From contig NZ_WEIC01000001.1 in NCBI RefSeq assembly GCF_009184395.1, positions 762,047 through 826,046 of the forward strand: a stretch of DNA of 64,000 bases. Direction: 5' to 3'. The notes below the pieces were generated by a model. That model was not told the DNA's origin and searched no databases. It saw nothing but the letters and a program-made list of their open reading frames with translations. The stretch comes from Amylibacter sp. SFDW26 (lineage in GTDB: Bacteria > Pseudomonadota > Alphaproteobacteria > Rhodobacterales > Rhodobacteraceae). Position numbers and translations under genes: made by a program. Below, in pieces: positions 6,282-46,130 of this stretch (its first letter is position 1; each line of letters opens with the position of its first letter).

Positions 6282-7169
6282 ATGAATTGGGATGATATAC
6301 GAGTATTTTTACATGTGGGGCGGGCGAATAGCCTGACCGCCGCCAGTAAACAGTTGAAAATGGATCCAAGCACCTTGGGGCGTAGAATTGCACGACTAGA
6401 AGAGCAGATGGCGGCACGGCTGTTTGTAAAGACACCACAAGGGTATGATTTAACCGATGCAGGACAACGGTTGATGGATCATGCATCAAACATGGAATTA
6501 TCATCACTTTCTGCGCAAGAGATTATGCAGGGCTCCACAGATCAATTAAGTGGTGTGATCCGTATTGGAGCACCAGATGGTAGTGCTAATTTTTTACTGC
6601 CTGAGGTATGCTCAGAAATTTCTGCGGAAAATCCAGATTTGGAAATCCAAATTCTAGCCTTACCGCGTGTTTTAAACCTGTCAAAACGCGAAGCCGATAT
6701 GGCGATTACAGTGTCGCCGCCAACTGCAGGGCGTTTGTTGGTGCAAAAAGTAACCGATTATCATCTGCATTTGGCCGCACATCGTGATTATATTGATCAG
6801 CATCCTGACCTTGCTGAGATAGATAATCTAAAGAACCACCCAATCATTGGTTATATTCCCGATCTGATTTTTGACAAAGAATTGGATTACTTATCCCATA
6901 TGGGGCTGCAACCATCACCCAGCTTAGCTTCTAATTCAGTCTCTGTTCAGATCAATATGATCAATCAAGGGGCAGGGATTGGGGTTGTGCATGATTTCGC
7001 GATGCCGAATTTCCCCAACATTCATTTTCTTCACAGGGCAAAACTCTCTTTAAGTCGTAGTTTCTACCTTGTTCGTCATGAAGGAGACCGCCGCGTGGGA
7101 CGTTTGAACCGCTTTGCGGACCGATTGGCGCAGGGTATGCGTGACATGGTGAAACGCAAAGAAGCGTAA
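6282..7169 (+). CDS. LysR-family transcriptional regulator
   Basis: 295-residue LysR regulator. The N-terminal winged helix is MNWDDIRVFLHVGRANSLTA with the helix AASKQLKMDPSTLGRRIARLE; a periplasmic-binding-like effector domain follows (residues about 90-290). The start at 6282 is supported by CGGAG six bases upstream and by the family N-terminus; the frame is open further upstream but reads as non-LysR sequence. It is transcribed away from mmsA across about 107 bp, so it is a plausible regulator of valine catabolism. That link is inferred from position only. Confidence 0.9.
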   Translation: MNWDDIRVFLHVGRANSLTAASKQLKMDPSTLGRRIARLEEQMAARLFVKTPQGYDLTDAGQRLMDHASNMELSSLSAQEIMQGSTDQLSGVIRIGAPDGSANFLLPEVCSEISAENPDLEIQILALPRVLNLSKREADMAITVSPPTAGRLLVQKVTDYHLHLAAHRDYIDQHPDLAEIDNLKNHPIIGYIPDLIFDKELDYLSHMGLQPSPSLASNSVSVQINMINQGAGIGVVHDFAMPNFPNIHFLHRAKLSLSRSFYLVRHEGDRRVGRLNRFADRLAQGMRDMVKRKEA

Positions 7170-7236
7170 ATCGCTCTTGACCTTAGGCTGTTGATATAGT
7201 TCCAGTGGTTTACCATAAAAAGCGATGGAGGTCGCA

Positions 7237-7731
7237 ATGCGCATAGGGCTTTATCCAGGGACATTTGATCCTGTCACTTTAGGGCACTTAGATATTATTG
7301 AACGTGCGTGCGTTTTAGTTGATCGCTTGGTTATTGGCGTTGCAATCAATCGCGACAAAGGTCCTTTATTCACACTTGAAGAACGTGTTGATATGATTGA
7401 ACGCAATGTAGAAAACATGCGAACAAATGGCACAGAAGTGGTTGTTGAGCCTTTTGAAAACCTGTTGATCGATAAAGCGGAAGAGGTTGGGGCCAAACTG
7501 ATCATCCGCGGTTTGCGCGCGGTATCTGACTTTGAATATGAATATGCATTGGTTGGTATGAACCGCGCTATGAACTCAAATGTAGAAACTGCGTTCCTTA
7601 TGGCAGAGGCCAAACATCAAGCTATCGCATCACGTTTGGTCAAAGAAATTGCACGCCTTGATGGCGATGTGTCAAAGTTTGTAACACCTGGTGTTCAAAA
7701 AGCTTTGATCGAGAAATTCACGAAATCCTAA
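7237..7731 (+). CDS. coaD: Phosphopantetheine adenylyltransferase
   Basis: 164 residues, the expected size. Transfers AMP to 4'-phosphopantetheine, the penultimate step of coenzyme A synthesis. It has the nucleotidyltransferase motif YPGTFDPVTLGH at the N-terminus, RGLRAVSDFEYE in the middle and the second ATP-contact block ASRLVKEIARLDGDVSKFV at the C-terminus. The start at 7237 follows a GGAGG five bases upstream; an in-frame ATG at 7225 is too early for that site. Confidence 0.97.
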   Translation: MRIGLYPGTFDPVTLGHLDIIERACVLVDRLVIGVAINRDKGPLFTLEERVDMIERNVENMRTNGTEVVVEPFENLLIDKAEEVGAKLIIRGLRAVSDFEYEYALVGMNRAMNSNVETAFLMAEAKHQAIASRLVKEIARLDGDVSKFVTPGVQKALIEKFTKS

Positions 7732-7797
7732 TATGCGGGCTTTTCCTTTGCGAATGCTAAGGATAGTGTACGCCGAACATTGAAAACGGAGACCGAA

Positions 7798-8304
7798 ATG
7801 GTTGAGATTAAAGATCCTGAAAACACAATCATCATGGAACTAAAGCATGGTAATGTGACAATCGAATTGCTGCCAGATGTGGCGCCTAAGCATTGTGAGC
7901 GTATGAAAGAATTGGCACGTGCTGGTAAATACGACAACGTTGTATTCCACCGTGTGATTGACGGCTTCATGGCGCAAACAGGTGACGTTCAAAACGGCAA
8001 CACTGGTGCTGATTTTGATCTACGCCGCGCAGGGACTGGTAGCTCTGATCTGCCTGATTTGCCAGCAGAGTTTTCAAAACTACCACATGACAAAGGCACA
8101 TTAGGTGCGGCACGTTCTGCAATGCCAGACAGTGCAAACTCTCAATTCTTTATCAACTTCAATGACAACCATTTCCTGAACAACCAATACACGGTTTATG
8201 GCCGTGTTGTTGAGGGTATGGAACACGTTGACAAAATCAAACGTGGCGAGCCACCAATGGAACCAGACACAATGATTTCCGTTAAAGTTGCGGCAGACGT
8301 ATAA
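7798..8304 (+). CDS. Cyclophilin-type peptidyl-prolyl isomerase, cytosolic
   Basis: 168-residue cyclophilin that isomerises Xaa-Pro bonds. Typical blocks are FHRVIDGFMAQTGDVQNGNTG, with the catalytic Arg, and NSQFFINFNDNHFLNNQYTVYG. No signal peptide, so cytoplasmic. The ATG at 7798 has GGAG at good spacing; an earlier TTG at 7780 is rejected. The stop overlaps the next gene's ATG by one base (TAATG), so the two isomerases are translationally coupled. Confidence 0.95.
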   Translation: MVEIKDPENTIIMELKHGNVTIELLPDVAPKHCERMKELARAGKYDNVVFHRVIDGFMAQTGDVQNGNTGADFDLRRAGTGSSDLPDLPAEFSKLPHDKGTLGAARSAMPDSANSQFFINFNDNHFLNNQYTVYGRVVEGMEHVDKIKRGEPPMEPDTMISVKVAADV

Positions 8305-32894: not shown

Positions 32895-33562
32895 AGTTAC
32901 CAATGTCGGAACCTTTATATAATGAGACTGATATAATAGGATTCATTGTAAAAACAAACGCCCCTATTGTAAAATCTTTAAATCGCAAGAGTTTTAGATA
33001 GAAATGCTCTTAGTAGTATTTAGAGCCCATCAGAACAAAGCTGGCAACGCCATACCGTGTTATAACAACGGGTTCTAACTCTGCTGCTGCATAGACCAGT
33101 TTTGGCATACGCCTGAGTTTCGTTATCGTAAATTCTTTCATATCATCATCCTAGTTGTAATTTTTATGCTTAGAATGCACTTGCTGGAAATTTTACAAAC
33201 AAAGCATCGAGTTCTGAGTTTTGACCTGGAGACATCTCATCACGCAGGTTTTGCATAGTAGGTGCCCTACTCCAGATGTTTTTAACTGGAGCACGAGCTG
33301 TAAAGAGATTTGTACAGCCTTTTAAGAGAGCCACGATCAGCGCATGTGTTTTACGTTTAGTCGCTACAGAAGTCGCTCTGTATGGCCTGTGAAGCTTCAT
33401 GACATTTGCTGGATCAGGCCGGTTTGGAAATGCTGCGCTAGAAAAATGTTCAATCATTGGCATATACCCACGGCTTGATTTCAACAAAATATTAGAAAAT
33501 TCGATAATGAATGTTCTAAACAAGGTAAGCCTCTTATCAGTTATCTTTGAAGCAAGTGAACG
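32895..33562. repeat. Left copy of a dispersed repeat (tniQ 3' part and flank)
   Basis: Segments 32895-33055 and 33376-33562 recur, diverged but clearly alignable and in the same orientation, at 39929-40075 and 40071-40252. The intervening 33056-33375 is deleted in the right copy. The 273 bp from 32737 to 33009 hold no other gene and are strongly AT-rich. Confidence 0.8.
33010..33141 (-). CDS. Phd/YefM-like mini antitoxin, possibly truncated
   Basis: 43 residues: MKEFTITKLRRMPKLVYAAA, then ELEPVVITRYGVASFVLMGS and KYY. The core 'EPVVITRYGVASFVLM' is what the Phd/YefM antitoxin family shows at its conserved strand ('PvvIT+hG+p.avL'). AGGA lies seven bases before the ATG. It follows tniQ by 28 bp. 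The decayed right copy (39999-40075) reads through this stop to ...MGAKCYLEHFSQNLED, so the gene here may have lost its last residues. No toxin gene is next to it. Homology is weak because the protein is so short. Confidence 0.5.
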   Translation of the reverse strand: MKEFTITKLRRMPKLVYAAAELEPVVITRYGVASFVLMGSKYY

Positions 33563-34252
33563 TCTGAGTGTATTTTCCAACCGCACAACAGCATTCCATG
33601 CCATTTTAACACTACGATCACTTAAGATACCCAATGCATTTCTGTCTGAGATATTCTGCAAACCAAGTTGAGAGCCTAAGTTAGCCCCACATCGGCTACA
33701 AATGATGACCGATTGCTTCCCATCATACGCAAATTGTGGTTTTGCAGCCCTATCAAAGCAATTTAAGCAGTGTGATGTCAGAGGTAATCGATGCTTAGGA
33801 CAAAATGTATTGGTCCCTAAAGACCAGAGAAGTCGCATATATTGATCCCTACCCTTCGATTGATCCTCCATGAGACATCGTCCACACCACGCATGCTTTA
33901 GCGGTCCAGAATACAAATCCTCATATGTATCGATATTACTAACCCCTCCTGAGTATCTTAACTCTTCATCTGAAAGTACAGAAAACGAATGTGATAGAGT
34001 TAAGCTGAGTAATCTATTTTTTGTTGTATTTAACTCATTAGGAAGCCGTTTCAGTATTATTGGTTCAAGTTGATGATCGCAAAAATCAAAATCTGTGTAA
34101 GCCTCACCAATTGCACCATCATTGATAACTTCCATTAAAAAAGAATTGGCATCCATATCGTAGAAACATGCATTACGGCCTACGAAGGAGGAAAATACTT
34201 CACCTCTTATGGTTTTAAACAATATTGGAAGACGTTTAGGAGTTGTCTGCAT
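33170..34252 (-). CDS. tniQ: TniQ-like transposition protein, solitary
   Basis: 360 residues from the ATG at 34252 (MQTTPKRLPILFKTIRGEVF). TniQ/TnsD-type features are the N-terminal 'P..GE.FSSFVGR' region and zinc-finger blocks CGRCLMEDQSKGRDQYMR, then CPKHRLPLTSHCLNC and CSRCGANLG (residues about 130-200). Family members pick the target site for Tn7/Tn5053-like transposition together with TniA and TniB, both absent here. The frame is open upstream to 34411 but that part crosses an insertion-sequence remnant at 34314-34522. Likely a stranded piece of a larger transposon. Confidence 0.75.
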   Translation of the reverse strand: MQTTPKRLPILFKTIRGEVFSSFVGRNACFYDMDANSFLMEVINDGAIGEAYTDFDFCDHQLEPIILKRLPNELNTTKNRLLSLTLSHSFSVLSDEELRYSGGVSNIDTYEDLYSGPLKHAWCGRCLMEDQSKGRDQYMRLLWSLGTNTFCPKHRLPLTSHCLNCFDRAAKPQFAYDGKQSVIICSRCGANLGSQLGLQNISDRNALGILSDRSVKMAWNAVVRLENTLRRSLASKITDKRLTLFRTFIIEFSNILLKSSRGYMPMIEHFSSAAFPNRPDPANVMKLHRPYRATSVATKRKTHALIVALLKGCTNLFTARAPVKNIWSRAPTMQNLRDEMSPGQNSELDALFVKFPASAF

Positions 34253-34313
34253 ATCACGACACCGCACCTGGGCGAATATATGGCAAACTGCATCGCGCGG
34301 CTCGGCACTAGAC

Positions 34314-34522
34314 GGGAGTGGGTAAAACCTGTGGGTGTTGGGGTAAGCTGCGCCAAAACATAAACAGGCCGGACAGACGACAGTACTGACGAACATGACC
34401 GCAAATATCACCAGAAAACACTTGCAATGCAGGAGCCACCCACAAACGCCGTTCTTGATGGACGTTTGTCAGTTTCAAATGCCAAGACAGCGTCATGAGA
34501 CCCCCAAGTTTTGCCCACTCCC
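34314..34522 (-). mobile_element. 209-bp internally deleted IS remnant (MITE-like) with terminal inverted repeats
   Basis: The ends are GGGAGTGGGTAAAACCTGTG (34314 onward) and, on the other strand from 34522, GGGAGTGGGCAAAACTTGGG, i.e. imperfect terminal inverted repeats. Inside, the minus strand encodes a 62-residue frame (34496 to 34308) beginning MTLSWHLKLTNVHQERRLW, apparently the start of a transposase. No target duplication is evident. The first 75 bp from the right end recur inverted at 39517-39591. Family not recognised. Confidence 0.65.
34448..34522 (-). repeat. Left 75-bp IS end, inverted partner of 39517-39591
   Basis: Reading the minus strand from 34522, 73 of 75 bases agree by eye with the plus strand from 39517. 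Both include the GGGAGTGGGCAAAAC end, GGGGGTCTCATG start region and SWHLKLTNVHQER coding segment. The IS ends point toward the cargo operon and the IS bodies lie outside it. The 440-bp gene-free stretch 34253-34692 consists of this element and the operon leader. Confidence 0.85.
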
Positions 34523-34692
34523 TTACCGAAGTCCTGACCCAAAAAAATCAAGTGATCGCATGATTTCGCCGATTTCTCAGCGCGCGTTCATAAATGCTTT
34601 CCAAAGAAACATTCTAAACGTAACTAACATTAAACGAGATGAACACTTCAAGCCATTTACAACTTTAAATTGTATTAGGAGAAAAATACATC

Positions 34693-35421
34693 GTGAATAT
34701 TGACACTCCCCAGATATCTAAGCCGTTCTTAAAAAATGATATGAAAGAACTACGAAAACAGGTTTTGCGAAACAAAAATCTACTACCCGATAGTCTGCTC
34801 AAAGGCGACGGTATATTTCTAAAACTAAACGAAACTGGAGAAAATTTTCCGATTTTTTGGTGCTTCGATAATTGGATTGAACCTTATTCACTTGCATTCC
34901 GTATTGGTTCAAGCCAACCGCTCTATGCGGCTCGCTCCTTTAATTGTAAAATAGGTGACGACCCAGAACAATCAGTTCGCTTAGCGAAGTTATTTGTTGA
35001 AGAACTCTTGGAATGTCATGGGACTGGTCCCCTGATATTAGGTGGAGACAATCAAGCTACTGCAATAGTAGAAGCAATGGCGCGTATACTTCTAGAGCAT
35101 AAAATAGACATCCCTGCCTTGATCGTTTTAGATTGTCAGTTTGTAAGTGATTATCCTGGTTATGTTTTTCAAATATTTGATCAGGCAGGTGACCCATATG
35201 AGCGTTTTATTGCGGAAGCCTTGGAGATACGCCAAGGCCAGTCAGGTACCTCAGCCTGGGGGGCGATTGAAGTACAGCAAGGCCAGTTCTTTAGGGCGCC
35301 AGCAATCGATCAGCTATCTCAATATATTAAACTGATTTCGAACGCGATTAGCGCCGGAGAAAATTTGCCGATTGGTGAGGTCGTTCTCGGCAACCAATTC
35401 AGCGATGGTGATCAAGCGTGA
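34693..35421 (+). CDS. Thioesterase-like protein lacking the catalytic serine
   Basis: 242 residues from a GTG preceded by AGGAGA eleven bases upstream. Residues about 75-135 read like a type I/II thioesterase of NRPS/PKS systems: PLYAARSFNCKIGDDPEQ, then LAKLFVEELLECHGTGPLILGG and AIVEAMARILLEHKIDIPALIVLD. The nucleophile elbow (normally GxSxG) is GGDNQ at 117-121, with Asp where Ser should be, and no C-terminal catalytic histidine is evident. Hence a pseudo-thioesterase, an Asp-nucleophile variant, or a carrier-protein-binding factor. First gene of the five-gene operon; its TGA overlaps the next start by four bases. Confidence 0.6.
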   Translation: MNIDTPQISKPFLKNDMKELRKQVLRNKNLLPDSLLKGDGIFLKLNETGENFPIFWCFDNWIEPYSLAFRIGSSQPLYAARSFNCKIGDDPEQSVRLAKLFVEELLECHGTGPLILGGDNQATAIVEAMARILLEHKIDIPALIVLDCQFVSDYPGYVFQIFDQAGDPYERFIAEALEIRQGQSGTSAWGAIEVQQGQFFRAPAIDQLSQYIKLISNAISAGENLPIGEVVLGNQFSDGDQA

Positions 35422-37049
35422 TTCAGTTTTCAGATGGTTGTAGTATCCTCGAACGTGTTGAGAGGCATGCTATTGAACGACCAGATGAAAACGCTTTTGT
35501 CTACATCAGTGATCGTTCTAATCCTGGTCAAGCGCTTAGTTGGTCGGAGCTTTGGGCTAGGAGCGCGTTTATATCTGACTCTCTTCCAGTATCTAGTGTG
35601 AAACAACCTCTTGGTGTTTTGCTCTTTTGCCGTAACGACTTGCACTTTATTATAGGGCTACTGGCGATCTGGATGCGTGGAGGCTTCGCCATTCCTGGAA
35701 CGGGTAGCTTAAATCGCAAGATCCTTGAACGAAATATTCATATTCTCGATGCTAGCAGGCCAAATATCATCCTTCATGACTTAACGGATTTCGAGCTTGA
35801 GAAACTCCGCCCCAATGCGGGCGGTGCGGTTTTTCAAAGAATTGAACCGCTTTCGTCAGACAAAGCACGCTCAAGCCACGCATTATGTCAACGAGGTGGA
35901 GGGGTAGTACAGTTTTCATCAGGGACAACCTCCGCGCCGAAAGCGATTGTGCTTACGGAACAGATGATCGTGGAAAACTGCAAGGCAATTGCCAGTAGCT
36001 ATAATTTATCTCCGGAATCCGTTGGCGTGAATTGGTTACCACTTCATCATGACATGGGGCTTGTTGGCAGCGTTATATCTGCACTTTGGAGCGGTGCATT
36101 GTCCGTACTGCTCAAGCCAACATTATTTATCCAAAATCCGCTAAGCTGGCTTTCGACCATTAACAATTGGCGCGCCACCAGCATCAGCGCGCCCAATTTT
36201 GCCTACGCAAGTTTGGTTCATGCAGCACAAAGTGGACTACCGGACGACATAGATCTTTCTTGTCTTAAGACCGCCGTAATTGGTGGCGAGCCTGTCCGGA
36301 GAGCTACAGTTGAGGGCTTAATTGAGACATTTGAAACTGTCGGCCTTTCTCCTGACGCGCTCGCCCCCTGTTACGGACTTGCGGAAGCGACGTTACTTGT
36401 CAGCAGCGGACAACGCCGCGGAGGTCCGGTATTTGATAACGATGACACTGCGCTCTTGGGTTCGCCTATTGATGCATTGAAAGTTGAAGTTTGGAGAGAT
36501 GGTTTGCAATGCGCTGATGGCGAGGAGGGCGAAGTGGTCTTATCTGGACGTAGTGTTGGTCACATTGTTCCAATCGGAAAAGATTGGCGTAGTTTTGCAA
36601 ATCAGCACACGGCCCCACCCGTCTTTTCTGGCGATTTTGGCTTTGTCAAAGATGGTGAGCTTTGCGTCACGGGTCGCAAAGCCAACAAAATCATTCTCAG
36701 AGGTAGGAATATCTTCGCGGAAGATGTCGAGGGAATAGCTCAAGCCGCGGTGCCAGAGATGGTTCCAGGTGGTGTAGCCGCCTTTGGTATCGCACAAGAT
36801 TCAACAGAAGGTCTGTGTATACTCATCGAAGTACGCAAGTCCCAGGAATTCAATCATTTGTCAGAACTCAATTCGCAAGTTGGTTCAAGGTTAGGAGTCA
36901 AGTTGTCTCGAATAGTCATTCTACGAAATGCAAGCTTACCAAGAACAAGCAGTGGCAAAGTAATACGCGCCGCCGCCCGAGATCTGCTGATCAAAGGGGC
37001 CCTGAAAGAAAGGACCAGAGAAGATGTCATTCAAACCAACCACCGATAG
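35418..37049 (+). CDS. Fatty-acyl-AMP ligase-like adenylating enzyme
   Basis: 543 residues of the ANL superfamily. The P-loop is FSSGTTSAPKAI (166-177); the WLPLHHDMGLVGSVISAL motif, FIQNPLSWLSTINNWRAT and SAPNFAYASL are FAAL-type features shared with FadD32-like and DIP2-like ligases rather than CoA ligases. GDFGFVKDGELCVTGR and the C-terminal catalytic-lysine motif LPRTSSGKVIRAA are intact. Such enzymes make acyl-AMP and transfer the acyl group to a carrier protein; the ACP three genes on is the natural acceptor. Starts at GTG within the preceding stop (GTGA). Confidence 0.85.
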   Translation: MIQFSDGCSILERVERHAIERPDENAFVYISDRSNPGQALSWSELWARSAFISDSLPVSSVKQPLGVLLFCRNDLHFIIGLLAIWMRGGFAIPGTGSLNRKILERNIHILDASRPNIILHDLTDFELEKLRPNAGGAVFQRIEPLSSDKARSSHALCQRGGGVVQFSSGTTSAPKAIVLTEQMIVENCKAIASSYNLSPESVGVNWLPLHHDMGLVGSVISALWSGALSVLLKPTLFIQNPLSWLSTINNWRATSISAPNFAYASLVHAAQSGLPDDIDLSCLKTAVIGGEPVRRATVEGLIETFETVGLSPDALAPCYGLAEATLLVSSGQRRGGPVFDNDDTALLGSPIDALKVEVWRDGLQCADGEEGEVVLSGRSVGHIVPIGKDWRSFANQHTAPPVFSGDFGFVKDGELCVTGRKANKIILRGRNIFAEDVEGIAQAAVPEMVPGGVAAFGIAQDSTEGLCILIEVRKSQEFNHLSELNSQVGSRLGVKLSRIVILRNASLPRTSSGKVIRAAARDLLIKGALKERTREDVIQTNHR

Positions 37050-38214
37050 CTTTATCAGACGACCGATTAATACTGCTGATCCCGGCCGTGTCTATGACAA
37101 TGTTCGCGCGGAAGGAGATATCCTTTGGTCTTCTTCCATGCGAATTTGGCTTGTTCTTTCAAAGAGCGCCGCCACGGAGGCACTAAGAAACCGAGATTTA
37201 CACACATTCAACCTGAGCAATCTATATAATCGCCTGGCCCGACAAACAGAGTATCAGCTGGAAGCTCTTGCGCATCTCGCTACATTCTTACCGATTGTGC
37301 AAGAGGGGGAGCGCCATAAGAAATTGCGCAGCCTTTTTGGCAGATTCTTAGCGGATAACCAGGATGCTTATCTAAGTGCATACGCTCAATCATCCCGAGA
37401 GCTTCTTGATACCTTAAAGGAAAACGGTGGGGGGGACTTTGCAACAGAATACGCGGACCGTATTCATAGCGACGCTATTGGTAGAATCTGCGATATTGCG
37501 CCCGAAAGGCGAGCCTGGATGGCGCAAAAGACGTTTGCCGAAGGCATCTTGGGTGTCGACATGCACTTATCCTCTGTCCAGAACGCCACAATCCGGGTTC
37601 GAGAGCTTTTTTCTCACTATGACGAGGTTCTTAGAAGTTCTGCTGAGAATGACATCTTGGCTAATATGGGGCAACACTTCGAAGCAGCAGGCATGCCAGC
37701 CGATCACGACTCCAAGGCATCATTTTTGACAGCTCTGACAGTACTTGGTGGAGACACGACGGCGGGAACGCTCAGCTTGGGGTTGGGGCGGCTCCTAGAC
37801 GCTTTCGAGGGTCGAATAAGTGCACAACAATGGCCCGATCAAAAAAACCTAGTTGAAGAGTTTCTCAGATTATCTGCTGCGATCCAGACCGTCTATCGTG
37901 TTGCAAACAAACCCACGATGATTGCCGATCAAAATATCGCAAAAGGCGAAACGGTCCTGATAAATCTATCAGCTGCGAACCGCGACCCAACCGCTTATGA
38001 GTGCCCTCATCAGTTCAACGAAAACCACCAGGCTGGTATACAATTTGGTACTGGCCGGCATTTCTGTAGCGGTATGACATTAACACGTAAGGCGGTTGCG
38101 ATATCGCTGGAGCATCTTTCTGAGTTCTCAGAGATCGTTGCGCGTGAAGGACGGTCATTCAGTGAAGACCGAATTGCTACGAAATACTCAAAATTCCCTA
38201 TCACACTGGAGTAA
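37024..38214 (+). CDS. Cytochrome P450
   Basis: 396-residue soluble bacterial P450. Heme loop FGTGRHFCSG with the ligand Cys at about 348, I-helix LGGDTTAGTLSLG with the acid-Thr pair, and K-helix ExxR in VEEFLRLS; the VINLSAANRDPTAY region is also typical. It starts inside the end of the ligase gene (26-bp overlap) and stops three bases before the ACP gene, so the carrier-bound acyl chain is the obvious substrate, as in NovI-type and BioI-type P450s that act on thioester-tethered substrates. No ferredoxin or reductase partner is encoded in the island. Confidence 0.93.
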   Translation: MSFKPTTDSFIRRPINTADPGRVYDNVRAEGDILWSSSMRIWLVLSKSAATEALRNRDLHTFNLSNLYNRLARQTEYQLEALAHLATFLPIVQEGERHKKLRSLFGRFLADNQDAYLSAYAQSSRELLDTLKENGGGDFATEYADRIHSDAIGRICDIAPERRAWMAQKTFAEGILGVDMHLSSVQNATIRVRELFSHYDEVLRSSAENDILANMGQHFEAAGMPADHDSKASFLTALTVLGGDTTAGTLSLGLGRLLDAFEGRISAQQWPDQKNLVEEFLRLSAAIQTVYRVANKPTMIADQNIAKGETVLINLSAANRDPTAYECPHQFNENHQAGIQFGTGRHFCSGMTLTRKAVAISLEHLSEFSEIVAREGRSFSEDRIATKYSKFPITLE

Positions 38215-38217
38215 ACA

Positions 38218-38451
38218 ATGAACAAGCAGGAACTTATTGATCTTTCCTTAGAAAGATTGCAAAAATTTCTAGGTCGCGAAGTAAGCGAAAAAGACCTCGA
38301 CATCGGATATGATAGTTTAGGAGCGGATTCGATGGACATGGTGGTGTTGGCGTTTGATCTTGAACAACACCTTGGCAAGCCGATAGCTCCAGAAATCTTT
38401 CTAGAACATGAGACACTCCGGGCAGCGCTAGAAGATGTGATAGCTCGATGA
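38218..38451 (+). CDS. Acyl carrier protein
   Basis: 77 residues, acidic, four-helix ACP with the phosphopantetheine site Ser38 in SLGADSMDMV (the family pattern is DSL). Distinct from housekeeping AcpP by its sequence around the site and by its place in the operon. Its TGA overlaps the next ATG by four bases. Likely loaded by the upstream adenylating enzyme. Confidence 0.93.
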   Translation: MNKQELIDLSLERLQKFLGREVSEKDLDIGYDSLGADSMDMVVLAFDLEQHLGKPIAPEIFLEHETLRAALEDVIAR

Positions 38452-39329
38452 ACGACCTCACCAGGATAGACAAGCAATCGCGCATTTTTCTGATTTTCCA
38501 AATGGCAAAGGTTGCGTCGCGGTCATGGTATCAATTGTTGAGTCATAACTTTCCTGATGCGATGATAAGTCACTTTCATGTCATTTCGACCAAACGAACT
38601 ACTAAGTACCACGAACTTGCCGCGGCCAAGCCCCCTTCGCAGACCATAAAGCACTTAGTAGACCGCGGCTTGAGCTGTCCAGATGCCCGAGCGACGGAGT
38701 TTATAGAAGAGGGGTGCTGGGTTGGCCCACCGGCAACCATAATTACTGGTGTCCGCGATCCGGTCGCTCGGGCAATCTCAGCCGTCACCTTTTTGGGAGA
38801 TCGATATGGATATGAGAGACTTCCAATAGCTCAGCGGGATAATGCTACACCGGAGAATGTACTCGAAGTATTTCACCGAGCTCTTGCAGTAGCTCGCGGA
38901 CAGGACGCTTGTGACGACACTTTCGTTACTCTTTTGGCTGAGATGATTGGGAGCTATGATCTATGGCTCGAAGAAGAGCTGTCTCCCGCATTTGGATTTA
39001 ACTTTGAATCAGTAGCCTTTGACCGAAATGCAGGCGCAATTCTGCTTGATAATATACACAAGGCACTTGTTTACCGAATGGAGGATCTCAAAGTACCTTT
39101 GGCACATGAACGATTGATGAGAACGGCCAGCATGTTTATTGGAAAGTCTTTGTCCCATTTTCCGTCTCCTAACCAGGGTAATGAGACACGTTACCAGGCA
39201 TTTTATAAGCAAGTGGTCTCTCAGTTGTGTCTTTCGGATGATGAGTTGGATTGGTTCTATAACAACGACACAGTCAAGAAATTCTATACTGAGGAGGAAG
39301 TGGGTGTTTTTCGAAAGCGGTGGAGCTAG
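38448..39329 (+). CDS. Sulfotransferase-fold protein (NKWYS/capsule-synthesis-like)
   Basis: 293 residues. An N-terminal P-loop-like IFLIFQMAKVASRSWYQLL (residues 12-30) and the internal ITGVRDPVARAISAVTF (about 98-114) match the 5'- and 3'-phosphate-binding segments of PAPS sulfotransferases. The C-terminal NDTVKKFYTEEEVGVFRKRW resembles the NKWYS family of putative capsular polysaccharide proteins, which share this fold. No membrane helix. It might sulfate a hydroxyl made by the P450, but donor use is not proven. Last gene of the operon. Confidence 0.7.
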   Translation: MNDLTRIDKQSRIFLIFQMAKVASRSWYQLLSHNFPDAMISHFHVISTKRTTKYHELAAAKPPSQTIKHLVDRGLSCPDARATEFIEEGCWVGPPATIITGVRDPVARAISAVTFLGDRYGYERLPIAQRDNATPENVLEVFHRALAVARGQDACDDTFVTLLAEMIGSYDLWLEEELSPAFGFNFESVAFDRNAGAILLDNIHKALVYRMEDLKVPLAHERLMRTASMFIGKSLSHFPSPNQGNETRYQAFYKQVVSQLCLSDDELDWFYNNDTVKKFYTEEEVGVFRKRWS

Positions 39330-39516
39330 GTAGAGGCCAGCTTCTACGCAGCTATGGAAAGATCAGACATGACCCCATCGGAAGGGGTTCGTTCGTAGGA
39401 TGCCGCTAAGGCAGAATAATATGGGAACTTCTGAAGGTCTGATGAATTTTCCCCAAACGTCATAACCGACCTATTCCCCGTTCAGCCCGTGTGGCCAGTT
39501 GCGTTGATCTGACTTC

Positions 39517-39591
39517 GGGAGTGGGCAAAACTTGGGGGTCTCATGCCGCTGTCATGGCATTTGAAACTGACAAACGTCCATCAAGAACGGC
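39517..39591 (+). repeat. Right 75-bp IS end, inverted partner of 34448-34522
   Basis: Begins GGGAGTGGGCAAAAC and encodes MPLSWHLKLTNVHQER from 39543, then diverges and hits a stop (TGA at about 39600), so the IS body is lost. Opposite orientation to the left copy, thereby closing a 4,994-bp cargo (34523-39516). Confidence 0.85.
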
Positions 39592-39933: not shown

Positions 39934-40252
39934 CAATATCGGAACTTCGATATAATGGGATTCCGAGTACAGATAAAATCCCCCTATTTGATAATCCTTC
40001 AATCTTCGAGATTTTGAGAGAAATGCTCTAAGTAGCATTTAGCACCCATCAGAACGAAGCTAGCAACACCATATGGCCTGTGAAGCTTCATGACATTCGC
40101 TGGGTCAGGTCAGCTTGGAAATGCTGTGCTAGAAAAATGTTCAATCGTCGGCATATAGCCACGACTAGATTTCAACAGTATATTAGAAATTCGATAATGA
40201 ATGTTATAAATAAGGTAAGCATCTTATCTGGTATCTTTGAAGCAAGTGAACG
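39929..40252 (-). pseudogene. Decayed copy of the tniQ/mini-antitoxin region
   Basis: 39929-40075 aligns with 32895-33055 and 40071-40252 with 33376-33562; about 320 bp are missing at the junction. It keeps the end of the Phd-like frame (minus strand, GVASFVLMGAKCYLEHFSQ to a TGA at 39999-40001) fused to an internal piece of tniQ whose reading frame is broken. Clearly non-functional for transposition. Confidence 0.75.
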
Positions 40253-42736: not shown

Positions 42737-43819
42737 TTAAGCTTCTATCGAGATTTTCCCAATTGGGTTTGAACAGCACGCAAGTATATAGCCTTTTTCA
42801 ATATCGCTTTCTGTAATGCCGCCGTTGTGAACCATATGTACATCGCCAGTCAGCTTCTTGACCTTACATGTGCCACAGACACCAAAGGTACAGCCTGATG
42901 GGATGTTTAATCCCGCTGCTTTAGCCGTCGCCAATACAGTATCGGTTTCAGCGCATTTATATCTGACATCAGATTTATGGAAATAGACCTCAGCTTCTGT
43001 ATCATCATCCAGAACAACATCATCAGATATCTGTTCATCCACGCTCATTTCTAATGGGGCGCCAAAGCTTTCTTGATGGTATCTTTCCATATCAAACCCA
43101 AGGCCAGAAAGCGCATCGCGAACAGCCTGCATGAATGGTTCTGGGCCGCAGCAAAAGACTTCTCTTTCAAGATAATCAGGTGCCATAAGGCCAAGCATTA
43201 ATTGATTTAACACCCCCTGATAGCCTGTCCATGGGCTGTATGCGTCTGGCTCGTCCACAACGAATTTAAGCTCTAAACCCGAGGTTCGACTCGCCATTTG
43301 TTCAAGCCGCTGACGGAACAGAATTTCTGATGGGCGGCGTGCGCAATTGATAAACACGACATCCATATCTTTTCCTTCATCCCAAAGACAGGTGGTCATA
43401 GACATCATTGGCGTGATGCCAGATCCAGCGGAGATGAACAAAAACTTTTTGTTTTCATGTGACGCGTTTGTGAATGATCCCGCAGGACCAATTGCTTTTA
43501 GACGCATCCCAGTCTGCAGATTATCCAACATCCAACGTGTTCCAATACTCGTTGGTTGCGCTTTCGCAGTAATGGTTATGGTTCTAGGACGCGAAGGTGA
43601 CGATGAAATCGTGTAAGTTCTATGAACCGTTCCAGTTTCTGTTGGTATTTCCAACGTCAAAAACTGCCCAGGATCAAAATCGAAAAATGCCCCAGAAGGC
43701 GCGCGGAATGAAAAGCTGGCCGTATTGGGCATTTCTGGAATAACAGACACACATTCCAGCATCTCGGAATCTGACCATACAGATTGTGACCGTTTACGGT
43801 CTGTTTCAGTATTGTTCAT
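42737..43819 (-). CDS. gbcB: Ferredoxin-reductase subunit of a Rieske monooxygenase (GbcB-like)
   Basis: 360 residues: an FAD/NAD(P)H reductase module (residues about 20-250; RTYTISSSPS for FAD and SAGSGITPMMSM for nucleotide binding, CGPEPFMQAV) plus a C-terminal plant-type [2Fe-2S] ferredoxin with CTFGVCGTCKVKKLTG and ILACCSN. Passes electrons to the adjacent Rieske oxygenase. Glycine-betaine demethylation is the best-known role of this pair; stachydrine or carnitine are alternatives. Start at 43819 follows AGGATAAAA. Confidence 0.88.
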   Translation of the reverse strand: MNNTETDRKRSQSVWSDSEMLECVSVIPEMPNTASFSFRAPSGAFFDFDPGQFLTLEIPTETGTVHRTYTISSSPSRPRTITITAKAQPTSIGTRWMLDNLQTGMRLKAIGPAGSFTNASHENKKFLFISAGSGITPMMSMTTCLWDEGKDMDVVFINCARRPSEILFRQRLEQMASRTSGLELKFVVDEPDAYSPWTGYQGVLNQLMLGLMAPDYLEREVFCCGPEPFMQAVRDALSGLGFDMERYHQESFGAPLEMSVDEQISDDVVLDDDTEAEVYFHKSDVRYKCAETDTVLATAKAAGLNIPSGCTFGVCGTCKVKKLTGDVHMVHNGGITESDIEKGYILACCSNPIGKISIEA

Positions 43820-43908
43820 GGGTTTTATCCTAATTTGTACAGAGTACAGAATTTCCAACTTAGACAAGGCTAATGGTTACTCAGTATCCACCAGCCTTGT
43901 TCATTTAT

Positions 43909-45138
43909 TTATTCTGCAGCGATGCTTTGAACATGCAGACGCTTTTCCATCGTTTCAGCATACCAATCGACAAAGCCTCGGACACTAACCTCATGCTCAG
44001 GTGAGTAAGGGCCAGGTACATATGCCGGGGAATTCACGCCAATCTGGTTATCCTCTACAACACGACGATCTTCCTCATTTGTAGCAACCCAAACTTCGGT
44101 TAAGTGATCGACGTCATAGTCTTTACCTTCCACAGCATCTTTGTGTACAAGCCAGCTTGTCACCAATTCTGTTTCTGTTGGGCTAATTGGCGTGACACGG
44201 AATGTCATACAATGATCTGGTAAGAAGTACGCCCATGTGCTCGGGTAATGGAATTTATTAAATACCCCAGAATCTTCTTTCTGAATATTGCCCAAACGTT
44301 TGGTTGGAACAGCAAATTCACCATCCATCGTGAAACTTTTCGTGCCTTCAACCAGCGGCATTCTTGACAGTCTATAATGACCATCTTCTGGTACTTTATA
44401 ATATGCTGGGAGCCCTGCTGCCTCGCATGCTTCAAAGTGTTCCGCAATATAATCAGGAATATTCCCATTCCCAAGGTAAGACACGCGAGGATCCTCTGGA
44501 AAGGATCTAATGAGGCTTGGGTGGTTGGCAGCACAGTGGTAGCATTCGCGGTTGTTTTCCCAAACCAACTTCCAATTCCCGTTTTCAATGATACGTGATT
44601 CAACTGCAACTTTTGCATTCTCCAAATCATGCGGTGCCAAGTAAGGGCGCACCACATCTGAGAATGCATCAAAATCAGGCGCATCATCAGCAAGGCAAAT
44701 ATAAATAAGACCTTCCAGATTGCGGCAATGTACAGATTTCAGACCATGATCTTCTGGTTTAAAATCTGGCCCCATGTCACGTGCCCAGGCTAACGAACCA
44801 TCAAGATTGTAAGTCCAAGAGTGGTAAGGGCACACAAGTTTAGCAGCATTGCCTTTGGCGGCCTTACAAATAATTGAACCACGGTGGCGGCATGTGTTGT
44901 GGAATGCTCGGATTTCATTGTCTGCACCACGCACAACAACAATCTGATAATCGCCAACTTTATAAGTTACATAGCTTCCAACTTCGGGAAGTTCACAAAC
45001 TGGCGTCACAAACAGCCAGTCTTTGTAATAAATGTTTTCCAGATCATCCTGAAATATCTGTGGATCGCTATAAAACGACCGCTCAAGTGCATGGCCTGGT
45101 TGGCGACGTCCCAAAAGGTCTTGTATGTTTTGGTTCAT
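43909..45138 (-). CDS. gbcA: Rieske oxygenase, glycine-betaine demethylase type (GbcA-like)
   Basis: 409 residues. The Rieske [2Fe-2S] site CRHRGS...CPYHSWTYNLDG (about 84-110) is followed by the catalytic domain with NWKLVWENNRECYHCAANHPSL, in which the bridging Glu/Asp and iron-binding His residues of the GbcA family lie. Oxidative N-demethylation of a quaternary amine such as glycine betaine is expected. Start at 45138, nine bases after GGAG; an in-frame ATG at 45156 is less likely. Operon with gbcB, divergent from a LysR gene. Confidence 0.88.
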   Translation of the reverse strand: MNQNIQDLLGRRQPGHALERSFYSDPQIFQDDLENIYYKDWLFVTPVCELPEVGSYVTYKVGDYQIVVVRGADNEIRAFHNTCRHRGSIICKAAKGNAAKLVCPYHSWTYNLDGSLAWARDMGPDFKPEDHGLKSVHCRNLEGLIYICLADDAPDFDAFSDVVRPYLAPHDLENAKVAVESRIIENGNWKLVWENNRECYHCAANHPSLIRSFPEDPRVSYLGNGNIPDYIAEHFEACEAAGLPAYYKVPEDGHYRLSRMPLVEGTKSFTMDGEFAVPTKRLGNIQKEDSGVFNKFHYPSTWAYFLPDHCMTFRVTPISPTETELVTSWLVHKDAVEGKDYDVDHLTEVWVATNEEDRRVVEDNQIGVNSPAYVPGPYSPEHEVSVRGFVDWYAETMEKRLHVQSIAAE

Positions 45139-45261
45139 GATGGCTTTCTCCAGCATAGGGTTTCTTAAAAATCAGGCTTCCTAGAATCTTAGGAAGAACC
45201 AAAATTATGAAAAACGTATAATTCACACAAAAAAACTTGTACAATCGATTGTAAATCGATC

Positions 45262-45284: not shown

Positions 45285-46130
45285 ATGGAGATTAAACTTA
45301 TAGAAACATTCCTGGATGTCTTAGAAAGCAGAAACTTTAACCTTTCTGCTGAACGATTGAATATTACCCAATCAAGCGTTAGCGCTCGGATAAAGGCATT
45401 GGAAACAGCCATAGACGCCACCTTATTTGAAAGAGGCCGCGCAGGTGCTACACCCACTGTTGCGGGGTTTCGTTTTGAGCCACACGCACGCCTTCTTTTG
45501 GCGACATGGGATCAAGGGCGCAGAGATGCAGGCGCAGGCCCAAACAGGGATGGTTTACTGCGTTTGGCTGGACAATTTAGTTTGATGCGATCCGTACTTG
45601 TGGATTGGGTGATTGAGTTACGCAGGCATTACCCACGAAAGGCTATTGATTTACAAGCAGACTATTCCAACCAAATCGTTCGAGACTTGTCACTTGGTGT
45701 CGTTGACATCGGCATTTTATATTCCCCCCAATATTTACCAGACATTGACATACAACAGGTTGGATCAGAGCAATTTGTAATGGTTTCTACGGAAAGTAAT
45801 ACTATAAACAAAATCTCCAAAGAGACATATATCAATACTGGCTACACATCATTCTTCAACCAGTGTCATCAGTCACTCTTACCAGAATTTTCTAACGGCG
45901 CACTTTCAGTTGGCTTCGAAGAGTTATCAGTCGAACTTTTGAAACGTATTGGTGGAAGTACATACCTTCCTAAAAGATTTATACCCGACCTTATGCTGAC
46001 GCTTCCTAGCATTCGATTTGTAGAGGATGCGCCAGAAATTTTGCATCCGGTTTTCTCTGCTGTGCATATAAGAAAACGGCACTATGCTGAAGTTGCACAT
46101 GCTTTAAAAGTGTTACGGAATACTTTATAA
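45285..46130 (+). CDS. LysR-family regulator, divergent from gbcA
   Basis: 281 residues. The N-terminus MEIKLIETFLDVLESRNFN, then SAERLNITQSSVSARIKALE and LFERGRAGATPT resemble the HdfR/LrhA-like branch. The effector domain follows from about residue 95. No Shine-Dalgarno is visible before the ATG because the palindrome occupies that space, so leaderless or weak translation is possible. Likely controls gbcAB (position-based). Confidence 0.88.
   Translation: MEIKLIETFLDVLESRNFNLSAERLNITQSSVSARIKALETAIDATLFERGRAGATPTVAGFRFEPHARLLLATWDQGRRDAGAGPNRDGLLRLAGQFSLMRSVLVDWVIELRRHYPRKAIDLQADYSNQIVRDLSLGVVDIGILYSPQYLPDIDIQQVGSEQFVMVSTESNTINKISKETYINTGYTSFFNQCHQSLLPEFSNGALSVGFEELSVELLKRIGGSTYLPKRFIPDLMLTLPSIRFVEDAPEILHPVFSAVHIRKRHYAEVAHALKVLRNTL

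Follow-up and report, generated by a model that had tools for sequence, protein, structure and literature searches.

A compact operon of five genes in Amylibacter sp. SFDW26 (Rhodobacteraceae) belongs to a recurrent and apparently undescribed gene layout, in which a fatty acyl-AMP ligase (FAAL), an oxidase, and an acyl carrier protein (ACP) are followed by a last gene of varying type. The operon lies in a stretch of 64,000 nucleotides, hereafter called the window, which covers contig positions 762047-826046 of the 3.14-Mb genome. We lean, with moderate confidence, towards regarding the five genes as a stand-alone acyl-tailoring cassette, in which the FAAL would load the ACP, a cytochrome P450 would hydroxylate the bound chain, and the last enzyme would cap the hydroxyl group. 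Among the data searched the exact gene set is present in this genome only.

In the proposed mechanism the FAAL, judged by its family, would adenylate a free carboxylic acid and load it onto the phosphopantetheine of the small ACP. The P450, which has the motifs of its family, would then hydroxylate the ACP-bound acyl chain, and the last enzyme would add a group to the new hydroxyl. The recurrent last slot of the operons suggests that this group is probably sulfate from 3'-phosphoadenosine-5'-phosphosulfate (PAPS) in the window and may be a carbamoyl or glycosyl group elsewhere. The decorated acyl group would leave via another enzyme or be passed to an acceptor.

The five genes of the operon

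All five genes are encoded on the forward strand. Genes 1 and 2 overlap by 4 bp and genes 2 and 3 by 26 bp, genes 3 and 4 are separated by a 3-bp gap, and genes 4 and 5 overlap again by 4 bp. These distances, recovered from the coordinates of the open reading frames (ORFs), are the same from which the initial annotation had proposed one tightly packed five-gene operon. It had also described the motifs of the ligase, the P450, and the carrier protein as intact and the operon as free of ketosynthase (KS) and nonribosomal peptide synthetase (NRPS) modules. Both descriptions agree with our results, because the motifs are kept in genes 2 to 4 and neither KS nor NRPS domains were detected in the 19 window proteins scanned (five from the operon and 14 neighbours). 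A Pfam scan assigned no significant family to genes 1 and 5. That the five genes are neighbours just by chance was considered and rejected, because their junctions are tight and the same order recurs at other loci.

Gene 2 (35418..37049) encodes the putative FAAL. It matches PF00501 (4e-39) and, at E<=1e-20, 18 PDB sequences, which have been deposited as polyketide synthase (PKS) domains, fatty-acid-AMP ligases, FadD enzymes, "acyl-CoA synthase", and NRPS domains. The matches not named as such are presumably FAAL-type enzymes, too, and FAAL is the best, though tentative, name for gene 2. Gene 3 (37024..38214) matches PF00067 (1.7e-15) and keeps E279xxR282 and the haem-binding C348 in the motif scan. 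The acid-alcohol pair of the I-helix, D244-T245 in GGDTT, was read by eye and had been missed by the scripted I-helix pattern. With haem Cys, ExxR, and I-helix pair, gene 3 qualifies by its motifs as a putative P450 monooxygenase. Its PDB matches include the BioI entry 3ejb in third place (2e-16) together with other P450s at 6e-17, 2e-16, and 7e-16. A search with this P450 found no relative in the contigs of the genome collection, and a search of 101 related genomes returned only distant P450s besides the protein itself. Gene 4 (38218..38451) matches PF00550 (1.1e-10), contains the predicted phosphopantetheine attachment site Ser38 in LGADSMD, and is 38% identical over 60 residues to the ACP of Phaeobacter sp. 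G2.

Gene 5 (38448..39329) encodes a remote sulfotransferase-like protein of the NKWYS type that does not match any family directly. There is no sulfotransferase among its Pfam or NCBIfam matches at E<=1, and no PDB sulfotransferase was found at E<=10. Only one of 72,556 plasmid records contains a relative at E<=0.01, a protein of Methylosinus C49 that is 28-30% identical to gene 5 over 97% of the query (E 7e-14). This relative comprises 737 residues with an NKWYS domain (PF10364, 6.6e-10) at residues 147-247 and a glycosyltransferase-2 (GT2) domain behind. K21, S26, R103, R108, and S111 of gene 5 are common to the one relative aligned, and so are two loops (AKVASRSW and VRDPVARAIS in gene 5) that we take to resemble the PAPS-binding 5'-PSB and 3'-PB motifs. 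A single-sequence structure model of gene 5 has a predicted local distance difference test (pLDDT) score of 41. Further relatives are found neither in viral contigs and phages nor, besides gene 5 itself, in 394 genomes of the family, and 190 genomes of the class contain one partial match in addition to gene 5. None of these plasmids, viral contigs, phages, and family and class genomes revealed a relative of gene 5 in a FAAL–P450–ACP setting. The label "sulfotransferase-like" is the weakest point of the initial annotation. It denotes a remote likeness via one relative and two loops, is backed neither by a family profile nor by a PDB sulfotransferase, and should be read as a lead rather than a shown function.

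Gene 1 (34693..35421) encodes a pseudo-thioesterase of the type found in NRPSs and PKSs. By tblastn it matches genes annotated as NRPS or PKS and, as a standalone protein, one from Phaeobacter sp. G2. An AlphaFold model built with six relatives (pLDDT 73) best matches thioesterase (TE) domains in the PDB, such as Vlm2, a bifunctional NRPS TE, and Pks13, with E-values from 4e-7 to about 1e-6 and TM scores of about 0.5-0.6. According to this model gene 1 has the alpha/beta hydrolase fold of NRPS and PKS TE domains. It reads GGDNQA where its relatives have GGNCQG or a close variant, so that the nucleophilic Cys is replaced by Asn120, and Gln196 takes the place of the catalytic His. In three alignments the Cys is kept in all twelve aligned relatives, two of which (L033 and L096) are near-copies, and the His in ten, with Tyr in L034 and L107. 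The protein has 242 residues and does not include the C-terminal part of longer standalone relatives. Calling it a pseudo-thioesterase had been proposed before and is borne out by the replacement of both nucleophile and His. Judged by these residues, gene 1 cannot be a normal hydrolase in this strain; more likely it serves in binding or gating, or is a relic. TEs with GGNCQG, having Cys at the place of the usual Ser nucleophile, are also embedded in NRPSs (L034:8695-14751, L038:6605-10708, and L040:6776-10663), and glycosyltransferase or glycoside hydrolase genes are annotated near these.

Recurrence of the gene order in other genomes

The plasmid CP104105 of Phaeobacter sp. G2 encodes TE, FAAL, tandem P450 (728 residues), ACP, and carbamoyltransferase, which are five slots in the order of the window. 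Pairwise identities to the window proteins are 26% for the TE, 32% for the FAAL, 28% over a part for the P450, and 38% for the ACP. A plasmid of Rhodobacteraceae bacterium SC52 encodes a B12-radical S-adenosylmethionine (SAM) protein, FAAL, tandem P450, ACP, and carbamoyltransferase, followed by genes similar to membrane-bound O-acyltransferases (MBOAT) and, also downstream, by an annotated MBOAT and an SGNH protein. No TE was recognised in the SC52 cassette.

A genome collection of 84,980 species was scanned with two peptide patterns, and the scan is biased to the tandem P450 type because both patterns were taken from the tandem P450 alignment. Among the 51 loci returned only the 17 strong ones (L096-L112, from 16 genomes) were tabulated; the other 34 are distant, mostly partial P450 matches and are not counted as cassettes. 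The strong loci belong to Rhodobacterales, and to Roseibium, Aurantimonas, and Methylorubrum. P450, ACP, and carbamoyltransferase follow each other in this order, by ORF ends, at all 17 loci, and the FAAL is located directly upstream at 16, the exception being L097, whose genome contains a full cassette at L103. A TE is present at six and a relative of the B12-radical SAM protein at ten of the loci. At four loci (L098, L102, L105, and L112) the carbamoyltransferase is followed by an MBOAT-like gene, hyp1, together with hyp2; for hyp1 the score stays under the Pfam MBOAT cut-off, and no family was found for hyp2. The tandem P450s (L033:17884-20070 and L096-L112) consist of two halves that form sister groups in the P450 tree, and both haem motifs are found in the listed ORF at 15 of the 17 strong loci (only one in L107 and L110). 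The carbamoyl cassettes (Phaeobacter sp. G2, SC52, and the 17 loci) thus share with the window the order FAAL–P450–ACP–transferase, except for the missing FAAL at L097, and sometimes the TE-like gene, but differ in the tandem P450, the carbamoyltransferase, the TE with Cys, and the B12-radical SAM relative of ten loci. In the 394 genomes of the family a tandem P450 is found in three at E<=1e-20, one being a fragmented copy. At L046 (G283 C244) the pair of tandem P450 and carbamoyltransferase is fragmented, and an in-frame stop interrupts the P450 match.

Starting from the window FAAL, 17 places in 16 of the 394 family genomes were found at E<=1e-40, the window included. These genomes are a sample of the larger family, and per genome at most three first-look candidates were scored among the listed rows of the FAAL search (two and seven in the two other searches), so that places may be missed. 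P450 and ACP are adjacent to the FAAL at six of the 17 places: the window, G118, G305, G106, G258, and G412, the last being identical to L098 of the tandem P450 scan. The next gene after the ACP is the sulfotransferase-like gene in the window, GT2 with a TylF methyltransferase in G118, GT2 in G305 and G106, and a carbamoyltransferase in G258 and G412. Among the other eleven places, three of which (L149, L170, and L175) are either short or truncated at a contig end, a P450 was seen only in G366 (L169) and is not adjacent.

The GT2 cassettes (L077, L165, and L166) share with the window the FAAL–P450–ACP–transferase order and a single P450 that has the standard motifs. They differ in the GT2-like last gene, and L077 in addition in having methyltransferases and a TE with Cys (GGNCQG). 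ExxR and haem Cys are kept in all single-P450 cassettes including the window, and the I-helix pair was detected by pattern in L077, L165, and L166. In L165 a polysaccharide pyruvyl transferase gene (6772-8055) overlaps the start of the FAAL–P450–ACP–GT2 operon by 4 bp. In two family genomes a P450 gene and a ligase–carrier fusion gene, which in L084 also includes a TE domain, are arranged tail-to-tail (L084:7405-11644 and L085:7606-11756). Such a pair could be a fused counterpart of the cassette.

The initial annotation had considered that the genes might never co-occur outside this strain. This doubt does not hold for the core and its order, which recur elsewhere, but among the data searched it holds for the exact five-gene set. 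The interpretation given there is supported in part. Its idea that an acyl group is tethered, oxidised, and modified by group transfer receives indirect support from the loci at which P450 and ACP are followed by a carbamoyltransferase or GT2. Sulfation may be part of it, but gene 5 is only remotely sulfotransferase-like.

Insertion sequence remnants and presence in the genus

The operon is bracketed by two end remnants of insertion sequences (IS), which form 75-nt inverted repeats of 97% identity with ISKra4-type termini. The left one (34448..34522, reverse strand) has its terminus at 34522 and its interior to the left, the right one (39517..39591, forward strand) has its terminus at 39517 and its interior to the right, and the span 34523-39516 described earlier as IS-bracketed is exactly the stretch between these arms. 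There are no further copies of the 75-nt end in the genome. Similar ends are present in seven plasmid records, and in both plasmids inspected, from Gemmobacter and Roseovarius, an ISKra4 transposase gene adjoins the end. Compared with these two ends, the interiors of both arms point outward from the operon. Therefore, the arms look like two solo IS remnants rather than one element enclosing the operon, and a single transposable unit bounded by both ends was rejected. A TniQ-like transposition gene (33170..34411, reverse strand; PF06527, 1.6e-11), which is about 40% identical to TniQ on Leisingera and Aliiroseovarius plasmids, lies to the left of the operon. To the right (40008..40252, reverse strand) the 3' part of this region and the sequence behind it are partially repeated in direct orientation (direct repeats D1-D3, 85-92%). 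TniQ-like gene and partial copy lie on either side of the operon with a spacing of about 6.7 kb, and similar pieces are present in the congener G032.

A search of 32 further genomes of the genus did not reveal the operon (22 of all 33 reach at least 90% completeness with no more than 5% contamination), and an operon common to the genus was therefore rejected. A FAAL match at 1e-20 is present in only three of the 33 genomes including the own one, and no P450 was seen beside it in the other two. Because of its location between two IS remnants and its absence from the congeners searched, the operon was probably acquired. The GC content at third codon positions (GC3) of the operon genes is 0.36-0.48 and largely overlaps the 0.28-0.45 of 16 other window genes, with the P450 and gene 5 (0.476) just above the highest of these.

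Within the genus, G020 encodes an 841-residue fusion of ligase, carrier, and thioesterase (L082:9267-11792). It is located next to a D-lyxose isomerase gene, and no P450 relative was seen in the stretch fetched around it. Further downstream in the window a pair of Rieske-type oxygenase and reductase genes (42737-45156) resembles glycine betaine monooxygenase, with the reductase below the model cut-off, and is divergent from a LysR-type regulator gene at 45285.

Weight of the evidence and alternative explanations

Several observations weigh against a stand-alone tailoring cassette that oxidises and caps an ACP-bound acid. Because gene 1 cannot hydrolyse in the usual way, the release of the product in the window is left without explanation, and the operon does not encode an electron-transfer partner for the P450. 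The assignment of gene 5 as a sulfotransferase is weak. The best NCBIfam match of gene 2 (3e-75) is PRK07768, which carries a CoA ligase label; FAAL and NRPS models come next, starting at 6e-66, and among the best 25 of 94 matches no model, including those of FAAL type, reaches its cut-off. In the carbamoyl loci, four aligned tandem P450s keep the haem Cys but have no ExxR at the aligned place, and none of the tandem P450 ORFs scanned shows the I-helix pattern, which also misses the GGDTT of the window. Because of the missing I-helix motif and aligned ExxR the tandem P450s may not be monooxygenases but non-canonical haem enzymes. ExxR-like words, counted irrespective of their exact place, occur upstream of a haem motif at nine of the 17 strong loci.

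The kinship of the window with the other cassettes is a further point of this kind. The window proteins are only about 21-38% identical to their cassette relatives, and the window FAAL and P450 are found on long branches in their trees. In approximately unbiased (AU) tests, for which 15 of 49 FAAL rows and nine of 69 P450 rows were left out as long or distant branches, none of the FAAL groupings was rejected (all cassettes as one clade, p 0.166; window with the carbamoyl type, 0.41; window with the GT2 type, 0.357). The P450 trees constrained to have all cassettes together (p 0.671) or the window with the GT2 type (p 0.783) exceeded the free tree in likelihood by 5.3 and 8.2, respectively, and placing the window P450 with ordinary P450s of the family, as a control, was likewise not rejected (p 0.482). 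The trees thus cannot decide between shared ancestry and separate assembly of the window cassette. The stretch between YG..E and GE, which we take to be the FAAL-specific insertion site, was considered as another marker. It comprises 52 residues in the window FAAL (from YGLAE), 53-64 in 20 other cassette FAALs, and 68-77 in six other FAALs, with 15 of 49 rows lacking a measurement and L166, L167, L173, and L174 mis-measured. A shortened insertion is not diagnostic of the cassettes because three FAALs outside of cassettes (L143, L149, and L170) are in the same range with 58-62 residues.

Three other explanations have to be compared with the tailoring cassette. It is rather unlikely, but conceivable, that the decorated acyl-ACP serves as donor for the acylation of a cell-surface polysaccharide or lipid, similar to the Dlt system, in which an adenylating enzyme and a carrier protein act together with an MBOAT and an SGNH-like protein. 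The MBOAT-like hyp1 after the carbamoyltransferase in four of the 17 loci and in SC52, where the annotated MBOAT and SGNH genes also follow, would fit, as would the polysaccharide pyruvyl transferase gene overlapping the FAAL start in L165 and the GT2 and TylF methyltransferase genes in L077. However, no MBOAT, SGNH, or polysaccharide gene is found among the window neighbours scanned, and the acceptor enzyme would have to be encoded elsewhere in this genome. In addition, hyp1 and hyp2 lack a confident family assignment, and the flanking sequence retrieved for the other 13 strong loci showed no hyp1. To a smaller extent still, the operon could be an isolated and decaying import that arrived on mobile DNA, with at least gene 1 being a relic and perhaps no product being made now. 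The IS remnants and TniQ pieces on both sides, the lost catalytic residues of gene 1, and the absence of the operon from the 32 congeners speak for decay; five open frames, tight junctions, intact motifs of ligase, P450, and ACP, and a GC3 that largely overlaps that of 16 other window genes speak against it.

The least probable of these explanations, although close to the decaying import, is a route to 1-alkenes that does not need a KS. The P450 would provide a beta-hydroxyacyl-ACP, gene 5 would sulfate it, and hydrolysis would be accompanied by loss of CO2 and sulfate, as in the sulfotransferase (ST)-TE pairs of CurM and the olefin synthases. P450s of the NovI type are known to beta-hydroxylate on carrier proteins, and the operon provides all the parts, namely FAAL, ACP, and proteins resembling a sulfotransferase and a thioesterase. 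The same functions are combined in the olefin synthases (PMC11837247), and an ST-TE mechanism has been described (PMC6274090). That mechanism contains a hydrolysis step catalysed by the TE, whereas the window TE has lost nucleophile and His. Gene 5 has no detectable similarity to a PDB sulfotransferase, and the carbamoyl- and glycosyltransferases of the other cassettes would not fit an elimination.

Relation to known pathways and implications

P450BioI and NovI act on a carrier-bound acyl or aminoacyl group. The likeness to the window consists of the BioI entry among the PDB matches, whose score is close to those of other P450s; in contrast to the BioI and NovI systems, neither biotin nor NRPS genes were seen among the window neighbours scanned. 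The JamA-type unit of the jamaicamide pathway is similar in that a free acid is transferred to a small ACP by a FAAL that stands alone, after which the ACP-bound chain is modified oxidatively (PMC11837247). The window likewise combines FAAL, oxidase, and ACP in one operon, with the P450 predicted to act on the acyl-ACP. Its oxidase, however, is a P450 and not a desaturase, the operon contains a TE-like gene and a group-transfer enzyme in addition, and no PKS or NRPS was seen beside the operon among the proteins scanned. With the cyanobacterial olefin synthases and the ST-TE of CurM the window shares the combination of FAAL, ACP, sulfotransferase, and thioesterase functions (PMC11837247 and PMC6274090), the latter two by likeness only. 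It differs from these in having a P450 but no visible KS, acyltransferase, or ketoreductase, in the lost TE residues, and in gene 5, which is not recognisably related to PDB sulfotransferases. The 2025 review on FAALs (PMC11837247) covers JamA and other stand-alone enzymes as well as the olefin synthases, and in a word-start search P450, carbamoyl, and glycosyltransferase did not occur in its main text. A literature search, with glycosyltransferases not among its terms, found among the papers listed none on a FAAL–P450–ACP–transferase operon in Rhodobacterales, which is no proof that there is none.

Tentatively, and possible rather than probable in our view, FAAL–P450–ACP–X might represent an undescribed pathway type that works without an assembly line and is so far mainly found in Rhodobacterales. 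Depending on the gene in the last slot, it would cap an ACP-bound oxidised acyl group with sulfate, carbamate, or sugar, and the decorated acyl-ACP may serve as a cell-surface donor. The window would then be the sulfate version, in which a dead TE has been kept as a binding protein. With this layout, orphan operons from a number of Alphaproteobacteria can be seen as instances of one recurring design. It also predicts a class of small hydroxylated, group-capped acids that would be made without ketosynthases. The varying last gene makes the logic of the cassette directly testable by gene exchange.

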